From contig NZ_CP069163.1 in the NCBI RefSeq assembly GCF_018802765.1, forward strand, positions 496,001-560,000: a stretch of DNA of 64,000 nucleotides. The letters run 5' to 3'. Shown here in pieces: positions 2,020 to 59,805 of this stretch. The notes under the pieces are model-generated. The model was not told where the DNA came from. It did not search any database and saw nothing but the letters and a program-made list of their open reading frames with translations. The position numbers and the translations under genes are program-made. Position 1 is the stretch's first letter; the number at the start of each line of letters is the position of its first letter. The stretch comes from Paludibacterium sp. B53371 (GTDB taxonomy: Bacteria > Pseudomonadota > Gammaproteobacteria > Burkholderiales > Chromobacteriaceae).

Positions 2020-4068
2020 ATGATCATCACGCCCGACCTTGCCAATCAGCCGATTACGGCCGCACCGGCATTACTCAAGAAACTGGAAAAGCTCGGCATC
2101 CGCCGCCGCTTCGACCTGGTGCTGCACCTGCCTTTGCGCTACGAAGACGAGAGCCACTTGTGTCCCATCAAGCACGCTCCCTACGGGCAGCCGGCGCTGG
2201 TGGAAGGGGTGGTGGTTGCGCAGGAGGTGCAGTTCCGGCCGCGCAAGCAACTGCTGGTGCGCCTTGAGGATGAGAGCGGGCAGCTGGTGTTGCGCTTCAT
2301 TCATTTCTATCCCAGTCAGCAGAAGCAGATGGCCAAGGGCGAGCGCCTGCGGGTACTGGGCGAAGTGAGGCGCGGCTTCTTTGGCGATGAAATGGTGCAC
2401 CCCAAGTGCCGGCCGGTGTTGCCGGGGGAGCCGCTGGCAGACCGGATGACCCCGGTCTATCCGACGCTCTCCGGTCTGACGCAGCCCCAGCTGCGCAAGC
2501 TGATTCATGCCGAACTCAAGGCGCAGCCCCTGCAGGAAACCTTGCCACCGGGCTGGCGCGAGCAACTGGGGCTGTGCACGTTTGCCGAGGCGGTGCAGTT
2601 GCTGCACGCGCCGACACCGGATTACTCCCTGCAGCAACTGAATGACCCCCTGCTGCCTGCCTGGCAACGACTGAAATTTGACGAGTTGCTGGCGCAGCAG
2701 CTCTCGATGCGGCTTTCCTATCGTCAGCGCCGAACCGGCAAGGCGCCGCAGCTCGCCGGCGATGGTTCGCTGCGCCAGGCGCTCTCCCGTCAACTGCCGT
2801 TCGCGCTCACCGGGGCGCAGCAGAAAGTTCTGCAGGAGATTCTGGCCGATATGCGCCAGCCGCATCCGATGCAACGCCTGCTGCAGGGGGATGTTGGCAG
2901 CGGCAAAACCGTGGTGGCCGCCATGGCCGCTCTGGCGGCCATCGAGGCGGGCTTCCAGGTGGCGCTGATGGCGCCGACGGAAATTCTGGCCGAGCAGCAT
3001 TTTCTCAAACTGTCTGCCTGGCTGGCTCCGCTGGGGATTGGCGTCGCCTGGTTGTCCGGTTCCTTGCGCAAGAAGCAGAAGACCGAGGCATTGCAGCAAA
3101 TTGCCAGTGGCTCGACCCGGCTGGTGGTGGGCACCCACGCTTTGTTCCAGGAAGAGGTGTCTTTCGAGCGGCTGGGGCTGTCGATCGTCGACGAGCAGCA
3201 CCGCTTTGGCGTCGGGCAGCGTCTGGCGCTGAAGGACAAGGGCGGCGAACCGCACCAGCTGATGATGTCCGCCACGCCGATTCCGCGCACCCTGGCGATG
3301 AGCTATTACGCAGATCTGGATGTCTCGATCATTGACGAGTTGCCTCCCGGCCGCTCGCCGATTGTTACCAAGCTGGTCAACAGCGACCGCCGGGATGAGA
3401 TGGTGGCGCATGTAGACCGTATCTGCAGCAAGGGGCAGCAAGCCTATTGGGTCTGTCCGCTGATCGAGGAGTCCGAGGCGCTGCAGTTGCAGACTGCCGT
3501 GGATACCTTTGAAGCGCTGACCGAAGAGTTACCGCACTGGCGGGTCGGCCTGGTGCACGGACGCATGAAGCCGGCGGAAAAGGCCGAGGTGATGGCGGCG
3601 TTTGCCGCCAATGAGATTCAACTGCTGGTCGCCACGACGGTGATCGAAGTCGGTGTCGATGTGCCCAATGCCACGCTGATGATCATCGAACATAGCGAGC
3701 GCATGGGTTTGTCGCAGCTGCACCAGCTGCGTGGCCGGGTAGGGCGGGGCAGTGCCGGCGGCATCTGCGTGCTGATGTTCGAGACCCCTCTGTCCGAACT
3801 GGCCAAGGCGCGCCTGCGGGTGATTTACGAGCATACCGATGGTTTTGAAATTGCCCGTCAGGACTTGCAGATTCGCGGCCCGGGTGAGTTGCTGGGGGCG
3901 CGTCAGAGCGGGATGCCGATGTTGCGCTTCGCGGATCTGGAGCAGGATGCCGAGTTGCTGGCACAGGCTCGCGAGCTGGCGCCCAGGATGCTGAGCGAGG
4001 CGCCGGAGCAGGCCGAAGCGCACCTGATCCGCTGGCTGGCGGGGCGCGAACATTTTCTCAAGGCATAG
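2020..4068 (+). CDS. recG: ATP-dependent DNA helicase RecG
   Basis: A 682-residue superfamily 2 helicase that remodels stalled forks and Holliday junctions. The N-terminal wedge/OB domain (about 1-230, including LVRLEDESGQLVLRF) precedes the helicase core. Walker A is GDVGSGKT near residue 290, motif II is DEQH (about residue 391) and the motif VI-type LRGRVGRG is near residue 570. The C-terminal segment DLQIRGPGELLGARQSG is characteristic of RecG. The length matches the family (E. coli 693). It starts at the ATG following GTCAGTC, and no long in-frame upstream extension competes with it. Confidence 0.97.
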   Translation: MIITPDLANQPITAAPALLKKLEKLGIRRRFDLVLHLPLRYEDESHLCPIKHAPYGQPALVEGVVVAQEVQFRPRKQLLVRLEDESGQLVLRFIHFYPSQQKQMAKGERLRVLGEVRRGFFGDEMVHPKCRPVLPGEPLADRMTPVYPTLSGLTQPQLRKLIHAELKAQPLQETLPPGWREQLGLCTFAEAVQLLHAPTPDYSLQQLNDPLLPAWQRLKFDELLAQQLSMRLSYRQRRTGKAPQLAGDGSLRQALSRQLPFALTGAQQKVLQEILADMRQPHPMQRLLQGDVGSGKTVVAAMAALAAIEAGFQVALMAPTEILAEQHFLKLSAWLAPLGIGVAWLSGSLRKKQKTEALQQIASGSTRLVVGTHALFQEEVSFERLGLSIVDEQHRFGVGQRLALKDKGGEPHQLMMSATPIPRTLAMSYYADLDVSIIDELPPGRSPIVTKLVNSDRRDEMVAHVDRICSKGQQAYWVCPLIEESEALQLQTAVDTFEALTEELPHWRVGLVHGRMKPAEKAEVMAAFAANEIQLLVATTVIEVGVDVPNATLMIIEHSERMGLSQLHQLRGRVGRGSAGGICVLMFETPLSELAKARLRVIYEHTDGFEIARQDLQIRGPGELLGARQSGMPMLRFADLEQDAELLAQARELAPRMLSEAPEQAEAHLIRWLAGREHFLKA

Positions 4069-4152: not shown

Positions 4153-4230
4153 AAAAAAAATGCCTTGGCTGGGGGGCCAAGGCATAAATGGGATTGCTGC
4201 AAACAACAAAGGAGAAACCATGATGAAGCA
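4153..4230 (-). ncRNA. Candidate CU-rich trans-acting small RNA
   Basis: No protein gene explains this stretch, but the minus strand has every part of a small-RNA gene. There is a promoter (TTGAAC, 17 bp, TAATAT), a predicted start near 4229-4230, a largely single-stranded body of about 45 nt and an intrinsic terminator. The terminator stem is 10 bp (4160-4169 with 4176-4185, loop 6) followed by eight U residues (4160-4153). The body contains UUUCUCCUUU (complement of 4208-4217), exactly complementary to a strong Shine-Dalgarno sequence and typical of Hfq-dependent SD-masking RNAs. An FNR-type palindrome lies about 61-62 bases upstream of the start. The predicted size is about 78 nt. This is inferred from sequence only. 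The plus strand of the same segment reads as AAAGGAG-N5-ATG followed by ten codons, an alternative explanation for the SD-like match. Confidence 0.55.
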
Positions 4231-4235
4231 GGCGT

Positions 4236-4264
4236 ATATTAGCAACATGTAAACTTCAGTTCAA
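4236..4264 (-). promoter_or_regulatory. Sigma70-type promoter of the candidate small RNA
   Basis: Read on the minus strand, -35 TTGAAC (complement of 4259-4264), a 17-bp spacer and -10 TAATAT (complement of 4236-4241). Both hexamers match the consensus at four or more positions with optimal spacing. The predicted start is G4229 or its neighbour 4230. Confidence 0.6.
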
Positions 4265-4283
4265 TTGTAATCAGGCCGCTACA

Positions 4284-4299
4284 CTTGACGTGAGTCAAG
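4284..4299. promoter_or_regulatory. FNR/DNR-type palindrome CTTGAC-GTGA-GTCAAG
   Basis: A perfect 6-4-6 inverted repeat whose core TTGAC-N4-GTCAA resembles the FNR-family consensus TTGAT-N4-ATCAA. Its centre (4291.5) is 61.5-62.5 bases upstream of the predicted small-RNA start on the minus strand, the classical class I activator position for FNR/CRP proteins. The half-site differs from the FNR consensus at one base, so DNR/NNR-type or unrelated regulators are also possible. Confidence 0.45.
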
Positions 4300-4402: not shown

Positions 4403-5860
4403 TTACTGAATCCACAGCGAGGCGAGATAGTACAGGCCGGCGGCCAGCGCCATGGACACTGGCAGGGTGAACAGCCAGGCCAGCAGGATGGCGCGGATGG
4501 TACCGAACTGCAGGCCGGATTTGTCGGCCACCATCGAGCCGGCGACACCGCTGGACAGGACGTGGGTGGTCGATACCGGCATGCCGATGAAGCTGGCCAG
4601 GCCGATGGAAATGGCCGCCGTGATCTGCGCAGCCATCCCCTGGGCGTAGGTCATGTCCTTTTTGCCGATGCCTTCGCCCACCGTCTTGACCACGCGACGC
4701 CAGCCGATCATGGTGCCCACACCCAGCGCCAGCGCGACGGAGAGGATCACCCAGTAGGGGGCGTATTCGGTGGTTTGGGTCAGATCACCGCGCAGGGCCT
4801 GCAGATTGCGCTTGTCGCCGTCGGCCAGATGCGGCAGCTGGCTGGCCAGCTTGGCGGCATCGTCCAGACACAGCAGGCGGGTGCGGACATCCCAGCGTTG
4901 TTCGGGCGACAGATTGTGATAATCGGTGTCGTTCATCAGCGTCTGGTTGAGGGCGTCCACCGTCTTGCCGGTAGCAAGCGGGTTGCAGCCGTGGCTGACG
5001 CTGTAGTGGTTCTTCGACAGCAGCGTCTGCAGGGCGGCATCGTGCTGGGCATAGAACTGCTGCAGGTGCAGGGCGGCATCACGGGTACGCTCGATCTGGT
5101 ACGGGTTGCTGTCCATGTTGAGCACATAGTTGGCCGGCACGATGCCGATCAGCACCAGCATGATCAGGCCGACGCCTTTCTGACCATCGTTCGAGCCATG
5201 GGCAAAGCTGACACCCATGGCGGACAGGATCAGCATGAAGCGGGTCCAGAACGGCGGGTGTTTGCGTCCCTCGACCTGCTGACGCTGGTACGGTGTCTTG
5301 TGCATGTTGCTGCGGCCACGATAGCGGCGCAGCAGGATCACGATCAGCCCGGAAATCAGGAAGCCCACCATCGGGGAGAGCAGCAGGGACATGCCGACCT
5401 CGATGGCCTTGCCCCAGTTGATGCCCTGGGACAGCGGCGAGTGGTTAAGCAGGGCATTGGCCAGGCCGACACCGAGAATGGCGCCGATCAGGGTATGCGA
5501 GCTGGAGGCGGGCAGGCCCAGGTACCAGGTGCCCAGATTCCACAGGATGGCCGCGGCCAGCAGGGCAAACACCATCGACATGCCGTGTGCGGTATTGACC
5601 GAGACCAGCAGGTCGACCGGCAGCAGGTGCACGATGGCGTAGGCGACGGCCAGGCCGCCGGACAGAACGCCCAGGAAGTTGCAGACGCCGGAGGCAAAGA
5701 CCGCCAGACGTGGCTTCATCGACTGGGTATAAATCACCGTGGCGACCGCATTGGCGGTATCGTGGAAGCCATTGATGAATTCGAATGTCAGGACAAAGCC
5801 GAGAGACAGGAACAGGGTGATCGCCAGTTTGAGGTAGAGCCCGGAAAAAAGTGCCAGCAT
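4403..5860 (-). CDS. pit: PiT-family inorganic phosphate transporter
   Basis: A 485-residue polytopic inner-membrane protein of the PiT family: low-affinity, proton-coupled uptake of inorganic phosphate, usually as metal-phosphate. Both signature repeats of the family are visible: FEFINGFHDTANAVATVIYT near residues 26-45, and the second half-repeat with GVSFAHGSNDGQKGVG (about residues 215-230) and MPVSTTHVLSSGVAGSM near the C-terminus. A hydrophilic stretch (about residues 250-340) separates the two membrane halves, as in PitA. It lies directly downstream of the pstSCAB operon on the same strand but behind that operon's terminator and with its own promoter, so it is probably expressed independently. 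Confidence 0.93.
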   Translation of the reverse strand: MLALFSGLYLKLAITLFLSLGFVLTFEFINGFHDTANAVATVIYTQSMKPRLAVFASGVCNFLGVLSGGLAVAYAIVHLLPVDLLVSVNTAHGMSMVFALLAAAILWNLGTWYLGLPASSSHTLIGAILGVGLANALLNHSPLSQGINWGKAIEVGMSLLLSPMVGFLISGLIVILLRRYRGRSNMHKTPYQRQQVEGRKHPPFWTRFMLILSAMGVSFAHGSNDGQKGVGLIMLVLIGIVPANYVLNMDSNPYQIERTRDAALHLQQFYAQHDAALQTLLSKNHYSVSHGCNPLATGKTVDALNQTLMNDTDYHNLSPEQRWDVRTRLLCLDDAAKLASQLPHLADGDKRNLQALRGDLTQTTEYAPYWVILSVALALGVGTMIGWRRVVKTVGEGIGKKDMTYAQGMAAQITAAISIGLASFIGMPVSTTHVLSSGVAGSMVADKSGLQFGTIRAILLAWLFTLPVSMALAAGLYYLASLWIQ

Positions 5861-31059: not shown

Positions 31060-31069
31060 TCCACTTATT

Positions 31070-31165
31070 TCCGGGAAGCGCTGCGAGACGGACAACGTCC
31101 CAGGCCCGGTTCAAAACGGCGCTTACCTGACAATCCGTGCCGGGGTGCGGGATGTAGGTAAGCGC
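31070..31165 (+). promoter_or_regulatory. SAH riboswitch upstream of ahcY
   Basis: The leader matches the S-adenosylhomocysteine riboswitch, a class found before ahcY. CCGGG (31071-31075) pairs with CCCGG (31105-31109), a GACG-GACAA-CGTC hairpin occupies 31087-31099, and AAGCGC (31076-31081) pairs with GCGCTT (31119-31124) across AAAACG. Downstream, GGTAAGCGC (31157-31165) is a perfect 9-base complement of 31119-31127, an obvious competing strand for the expression platform. SAH accumulation would be expected to turn on ahcY. Confidence 0.88.
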
Positions 31166-59712: not shown

Positions 59713-59805
59713 ACATCAGACGCTTGTGCGTTTTGGTGTTGTCTCCTCCATCCTCCTTTCAAAGGTGGAACTTGGCGCGATCACAACCGGGTTGCGCTTT
59801 TTTTT
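59713..59805 (+). ncRNA. Candidate CU-rich small RNA upstream of rplM
   Basis: About 93 nt with its own promoter and a T8 intrinsic terminator. The 5' part can form a small ACGC-TTGT-GCGT hairpin (59719-59730). The middle is strikingly CU-rich (UCUCCUCCAUCCUCCUUU, 59742-59759), complementary to Shine-Dalgarno sequences. The terminator combines GCGC (59775-59778) and AAC (59785-59787) with GTT (59791-59793, hairpin loop CGG) and GCGC (59794-59797), before eight T (59798-59805). This 5' hairpin, CU-rich single strand and terminator layout is typical of Hfq-dependent regulators of translation. A 78-codon frame across the same DNA has no family features and reads through the terminator. Confidence 0.55.

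Follow-up and report, generated by a model that had tools for sequence, protein, structure and literature searches.

A predicted small RNA family with a conserved FNR-type control site in Paludibacterium, Chromobacterium and related genera

Small RNAs (sRNAs) driven by FNR are known in enteric bacteria and in Neisseria. The accessible text of PMC3032703 describes gonococcal FnrS as an RNA of 108 nt that begins with AUG and is encoded opposite NGO0796, next to the bacterioferritin genes, under an FNR site at -41.5; the same text places the FNR site of E. coli FnrS at -41.5. Gonococcal FnrS and AniS of N. meningitidis are presented, in the accessible parts of the sources, as sRNAs induced by FNR under oxygen limitation, with a role of Hfq inferred in the case of AniS (PMC3032703, PMC4423775). 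Other described RNAs carry segments complementary to SD sequences. NmsR, NgncR_162-163 and RcoF1, which come in sibling copies, are reported in the available text of PMC5362039 to repress metabolic genes with UC-rich anti-SD segments. CU-rich, RBS-complementary stretches are also described for RF02278 (Betaproteobacteria_toxic_sRNA; ncS27 and its sisters) and for S17/bdhR1, and repression of transport and metabolism genes was either predicted or shown, as far as the accessible sections of these papers go (PMC5688073, PMC11722255). Our search of the literature on Chromobacterium or betaproteobacterial FNR sRNAs, which left most subscription papers outside its reach, returned none beyond those of Neisseria.

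Here, we analysed a stretch of 64,000 nucleotides of the Paludibacterium sp. B53371 genome (the window) in which an FNR-type box, a promoter, a 77-nt transcript and a terminator follow one another on the minus strand at 4298-4153, between pit and recG. Gene order identifies the pit-type transporter gene (4403-5860, minus strand) as the conserved upstream neighbour and recG (2020-4068, plus strand) as the conserved convergent one; a terminator-like hairpin follows pit at about 4388-4348. On the minus strand, the FNR/Anr-type box TTGACTCACGTCAA lies at 4285-4298, the -35 element TTGAAC at 4259-4264 and, after a 17-nt spacer, the extended -10 TTGC-TAATAT at 4236-4245, with TAATAT itself at 4241-4236. 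The G of GCUUC, which follows TAATAT by seven bases, was taken as the +1, and the predicted transcript, delimited by covariance model matches and our reading of them, covers 4153-4229 with this inferred start. The box centre lies 62.5 nt from the G at 4229, or 61.5 nt if the start is one base earlier, which bears out the distance of 61.5-62.5 proposed originally. The 5' seed GCUUCAUCAUGGUUUCUCCUUUGUUGUUUGC (4199-4229), complementary to an SD, a spacer and a start codon, includes the anti-SD core UUUCUCCUUU (4217-4208). In folds, a 6-bp hairpin occupies transcript positions 21-36 (4194-4209), and the Rho-independent terminator (4153-4185) consists of a 10-bp stem and U8, the hairpin spanning 4185-4160 and the eight T ending at 4153. 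Upon re-reading of the window sequence, every part named in the original prediction was found where it had been placed. No Rfam family reached its gathering score at the locus, where 18 low-scoring matches were found at E up to 10. Elsewhere in the window, at 31067-31131 (plus strand), there is an SAH riboswitch of 38.7 bits, just above the gathering score of 37.

Taken from a single sequence, these signals are within reach of chance. The promoter scores 8/12 to consensus by our own count and was missing from the output of a scan whose threshold was 9; terminator-like sites in 9 kb number 10 against 6.9 expected. It is the comparison with other genomes that makes the signals significant. Our family sample comprised 61 genomes, i.e., the window's genome and 60 relatives, and a DNA search of these gave strong matches in several genera. 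A covariance model (R1), built from 23 transcripts (alignment A1), found matches at E 0.01 or better in 47 of the 61 genomes, the window copy scoring 99 bits. Six genomes (G014, G027, G078, G079, G082 and G084) had weak matches only, which we read as NmsR-like RNAs in five cases and as something else in G079; because these six were discounted, 41 of 61 genomes are counted as sRNA carriers. They include every genome of g1, the window's genus (6/6), g3 (2/2), g6 (1/1), g7 (10/10) and g9 (4/4), together with 18 of the 19 in g8, the Chromobacterium group; the R1 search found no sRNA in g2, g4, g5 and g10 (3, 2, 13 and 1 genomes). According to one pattern scan, named records with the sRNA belong to Chromobacterium, Aquitalea, Paludibacterium, Crenobacter and Craterilacuibacter, and further to a Pseudogulbenkiania MAG, Neisseriaceae bacterium JH1-16 and a record titled Xenophilus sp. 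AP218F. A match in a Desulfuromonas MAG (L128) was rejected as false, being antisense to a gene start and missing the terminator in the stretch read.

Both pit and recG were within the scanned flanks at 36 of the 41 loci (pit alone at three, recG alone at two), and wider stretches reveal both for two of the remaining five, G003 and G005. The original prediction had proposed a conservation check in relatives, and in the pit/recG-linked copies the box, the -10 and the terminator are indeed kept. Outside the family, R1 matches in 12 order-level genomes were discarded as NmsR-like or other anti-SD RNAs, gene starts and unrelated terminators, as far as they were read. G187 belongs to a family that we take to be Neisseriaceae on account of an uptake-sequence-like repeat, and across 41 genomes of that family the best R1 score was 27.7 bits; the matches there were of the same kinds as far as read, 6 of 31 having been returned as loci.

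A TTG-N7-TCAA box lies upstream of all 41 linked copies, so that in each of them the predicted FNR-type site sits at an activating position: -61.5 in 28 copies, -60.5 in two, -62.5 in five, -63.5 in two, -64.5 in two and -42.5 in two. Base-shuffled upstream regions, which preserve single-base content only, carry such a box in 0.5% of cases; the linked copies are related by descent, and thus 41 boxes are not 41 independent events. Of 39 copies checked, 37 have the -35 TTG at a distance of 17 or 18 nt from the -10, and 32 have TTGC ahead of the -10, which makes it an extended -10. The two copies without a -35 TTG, both from Crenobacter, are the two whose box is at -42.5, an arrangement that class II activation would lead one to expect. 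Class I and class II activation by CRP and FNR in E. coli differ in just this way. The claim of an sRNA gene combining an FNR-type box in the class I position with an SD-complementary seed is upheld by the alignments, where both are seen.

As for the protein that reads the box, the window's genome has one fnr gene above the NCBIfam cut-off (G000:C1:602112-602816). A match to fnr is present in 60 of 61 genomes, and above the cut-off in 59, genera without the sRNA included; the FNR protein that we read in one relative has the CX2CX5C motif. It is nevertheless conceivable, though unlikely, that another CRP/FNR-family protein, a Dnr-type nitric-oxide sensor, binds here, so that the sRNA would answer to nitric oxide or denitrification and not to oxygen. 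Dnr-type regulators share the TTGAT-N4-ATCAA half-sites, and most of the boxes show one or two departures from the FNR consensus, both of which would suit such a sensor; the near-universal canonical fnr match speaks for FNR instead.

In folds of the RNA, which give a z of -3.5, transcript positions 1-20 are mostly unpaired, and the 6-bp hairpin appears in four of eight folded copies. The terminator stem covaries: all five tested pairs changed on both sides, 91.9% of cells are paired, and the covariation score is 0.555 against 0.236 when shuffled and at most 0.181 when slid. In A1 (23 sequences) the seed columns are mostly invariant or nearly so, and the seed is complementary to an entire start site, AAAGGAG-AAACC-AUG. 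The seed segment UUUCUCCUUUG survives in 27 of 39 copies, and the 12 that have lost it all belong to g8. The unit has the features of an Hfq-type sRNA, namely its own promoter, a mostly unpaired 5' end and a Rho-independent terminator with a U-tail, and hfq was found in the window's genome.

Since the seed is antisense to a start site, the opposite strand of the window copy carries a perfect AAGGAG-AAACC-ATGATG, and with it a mini-ORF (MMKQAYISNM, SD AAGGAG, 4220-4252, plus strand). One could propose that a leader peptide of the type MMKxxYISx with a strong SD is what evolution has kept and that the minus-strand RNA is accidental, and peptides of 9-10 residues do recur in many copies. Yet the recurring residues (MMK...YIS or NIS) come from reading the seed and the -10 in reverse, and the SD-AUG on the plus strand is missing from 12 of 39 copies, whose box, -10 and terminator stay. 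The length and frame of the ORF vary as well, the peptide being MKRYLY or MMKRDGC in g9 and 22 or 32 residues long in two other copies, and the T-run is present on the minus-strand side only. We therefore rejected the ORF as a conserved feature, judge it a by-product, and consider the leader-peptide explanation highly improbable. The case that would have spoken against the sRNA, an ORF kept while the promoter and hairpin are not, is found here the other way round.

Some genomes carry more than one copy of the sRNA. Each of the 18 g8 genomes with a linked copy has a second one, which is away from recG and pit within the fetched flanks and has its TTG-N7-TCAA box at -41.5 in 17 cases and at -52.5 in one. 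The same upstream search found no box in four g9 siblings and two g3 tandem copies. In g3, the tandem sibling CATTCATCATGGTTTCTCCTTTTTGTTGC (near L043 3242 and L306 1638) follows closely after the linked sRNA; it has a terminator of its own and no FNR-type box. The box is thus mostly at -61.5 and elsewhere at -42.5, where the -35 is missing, or at -41.5, which amounts to a natural experiment in promoter evolution. In g8, CUCC is lost from the seed of 13 of the 18 linked copies, 11 of which read GGUUUCUUUUGUUUGC, and the sibling retains GGCUUCUCC. We see about even odds that the locus represents a third, separate origin of a low-oxygen switch from FNR to an sRNA: a sibling family driven from class I and class II sites, whose seed offers a ready antisense to an entire translation start signal, and in which a division of labour has arisen in those 13 Chromobacterium-group genomes, where the class I copy is without the anti-SD core and its sibling keeps it. 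Such siblings allow one to ask how an sRNA regulon divides after duplication, and there are laboratory strains of Chromobacterium in which genes can be deleted.

Possible targets were sought with three patterns. The seed complement AACAAAGGAGAAACCATGATG, with up to three mismatches, matched nothing in the window's genome but the sRNA's own gene and a single site away from gene starts; the site G000:C1:1000144 was rejected as a target, as it is not at a gene start. When up to two mismatches are allowed, each of 18 genomes holds 5-13 sites of the plain SD-AUG pattern CAAAGGAGAAACCATG, counting the sRNA's own. Non-self sites number 109 in 13 sRNA genomes and 39 in five without the sRNA, about 8 per genome both ways (reversed control: 9 and 1, respectively), and across these 18 genomes plain SD-AUG sites are not enriched where the sRNA exists. 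Many of the 109 precede transporter and catabolism genes, mostly named by eye and without a comparison background, all 109 sites having been read and most of the 39 left unread.

A different picture emerged with the extended pattern GCAAACAACAAAGGAG, which reaches further upstream and is less generic; it gave 86 non-self matches against 23 for the reversed pattern in the 41 sRNA genomes, and 17 against 22 in the 20 genomes without the sRNA (Fisher p 8e-5), although one prophage gene accounts for 14 of the 39 sites read and the matches are therefore not independent of one another. Outside g8 the counts, summed by hand, were 33 against 12 (p 0.008). The window's genome has no non-self extended site at two mismatches or fewer. 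Thus, of the seed search against SD regions suggested in the original prediction, the extended sites yielded an enrichment with the sRNA and the plain ones did not. These two results bear on the idea that the FNR-controlled sRNA is mainly a sponge which titrates Hfq or the partners of other anti-SD sRNAs. The lack of enrichment of plain sites would fit a sponge, and so would the other anti-SD sRNAs in the same genomes (RF02278-type matches in 60 of 61; NmsRb in L097). However, the seed complements mRNA start sites, and only the genomes with the sRNA show a surplus of extended mRNA sites, which leaves the sponge quite improbable.

We read 39 of the extended sites, 37 of them from sRNA genomes, picked by recurrence or few mismatches and not at random; at ten of them there is no ORF of 70 residues. 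In 14 g8 loci (L341-L347, L349, L350, L353, L356-L358 and L379), GCCAACAACAAAGGAG or a near variant of it precedes the start of the prophage gene, whose product is a DNA circularisation protein (PF07157 in L353). Gamma-glutamyltranspeptidase genes stand at three sites (L348, L352 and L355; PF01019 in L352), and PF01019 is also found in L156, reached via the plain pattern. Further extended sites precede genes for an acid phosphatase (L364) and for solute-binding proteins of family 3 (L372) and family 5 (L359), and L248, from the plain pattern, resembles a family-3 solute-binding protein by eye. The putative target set would perhaps concern amino-acid and peptide uptake and breakdown. In five g8 genomes R1 also matches, in antisense, the place where an Orn/Lys/Arg decarboxylase gene begins (Pfam run on L104); the decarboxylase leader in L103, L104, L108, L110 and L111, near 1025-1061, has a long broken complementarity to the sRNA, with GCAAACACAACAGGAGAAACC in two of the five. 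Sites at cytochrome b (petB, named by eye) in three genera were set aside, since they fall within the first codons, where the match may owe itself to coding by coincidence.

The original prediction also held that the RNA silences aerobic functions, and this exceeds the evidence. ETF-QO, the aerobic candidate that we tested, is complementary to the sRNA in the window's genome, but its leader pairs no better where the sRNA is present: the mean was -26.6 kcal/mol in 17 sRNA genomes and -27.3 in 13 without, a comparison covering 30 of the 59 genomes with a match. ETF-QO was accordingly dropped as a conserved target.

The reading that we favour, with a probability of roughly 80%, is that of an FNR-activated, Hfq-type trans-acting sRNA which would block translation initiation. 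It is built on the anatomy of the unit, its conservation, the box position, the covarying terminator and the presence of fnr and hfq, all read from sequence; from these we infer transcription and its start, control by FNR and not by a sister regulator, dependence on Hfq, repression and the set of targets. When oxygen is scarce, FNR would switch the sRNA gene on. Bound at about -61.5, it would recruit RNA polymerase as a class I activator to the extended -10 promoter, and the resulting 77-nt RNA, probably together with Hfq, would present its 5' seed. The seed, as antisense of the SD AAAGGAG, the spacer AAACC and the AUG, could then stop the ribosome from starting on matching mRNAs. If this is true, the sRNA probably turns genes down as oxygen runs short.

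Several described RNAs resemble parts of this unit. RsaE/RoxS (RF01820) are respiration-linked sRNAs which share a UUCUCC...UUUG stretch with it; with a score of 18.6 bits (E 0.75; cut-off 79), the resemblance is confined to the seed. The likeness to RF02278 is limited to CU-rich, RBS-complementary stretches, the RF02278 sRNAs being double hairpins at other loci; RF02278 (gathering score 50) has no match at the sRNA locus and has matches elsewhere in the window's genome. At 59740-59805 of the window (plus strand) we noticed an RF02278-like sRNA with CU-rich stretches, scoring 42.4 bits against that gathering score of 50.

An anti-SD segment and sibling copies are shared with NmsR (RF02877, NmsRb), which is a separate gene: RF02877 scores 91.3 bits in L097, and its gathering score of 52 is not reached in the window. 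In a scan of ten loci, RF02877 matched in L097 and L084 only and at none of the new-sRNA loci L005, L011, L024, L032, L036, L105 and L112, and R1 in turn gives NmsR-like RNAs only about 27 bits. The new sRNA and the NmsR-like RNAs may be distant kin. The NmsRb homologues themselves (L097 982-1070, 91.3 bits; L084 1344-1433, 58 bits) lie outside the presumed Neisseriaceae, and L084 seems to hold two units side by side.

With FnrS and AniS of Neisseria the new RNA has in common that it is an FNR-linked sRNA of a related lineage, its induction being predicted here from the box. It differs from gonococcal FnrS, as described, in its length of 77 nt, its box at about -61.5 and its pit/recG neighbourhood. 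As for E. coli FnrS, whose counterpart the RNA had been proposed to be, the analogy would hold for the logic of an FNR-activated sRNA in anaerobic reprogramming and does not extend to a sequence match: FnrS, for which Rfam holds a family, was not among the 18 Rfam matches at the locus at E up to 10. What emerges is a new family within a known kind of sRNA, in which both the predicted gene and its FNR-type control site are conserved. The Chromobacterium/Aquitalea/Paludibacterium lineage thereby gains a predicted FNR-driven sRNA of its own, for which the tests made here revealed no sequence relationship to the FNR-driven sRNAs already described.
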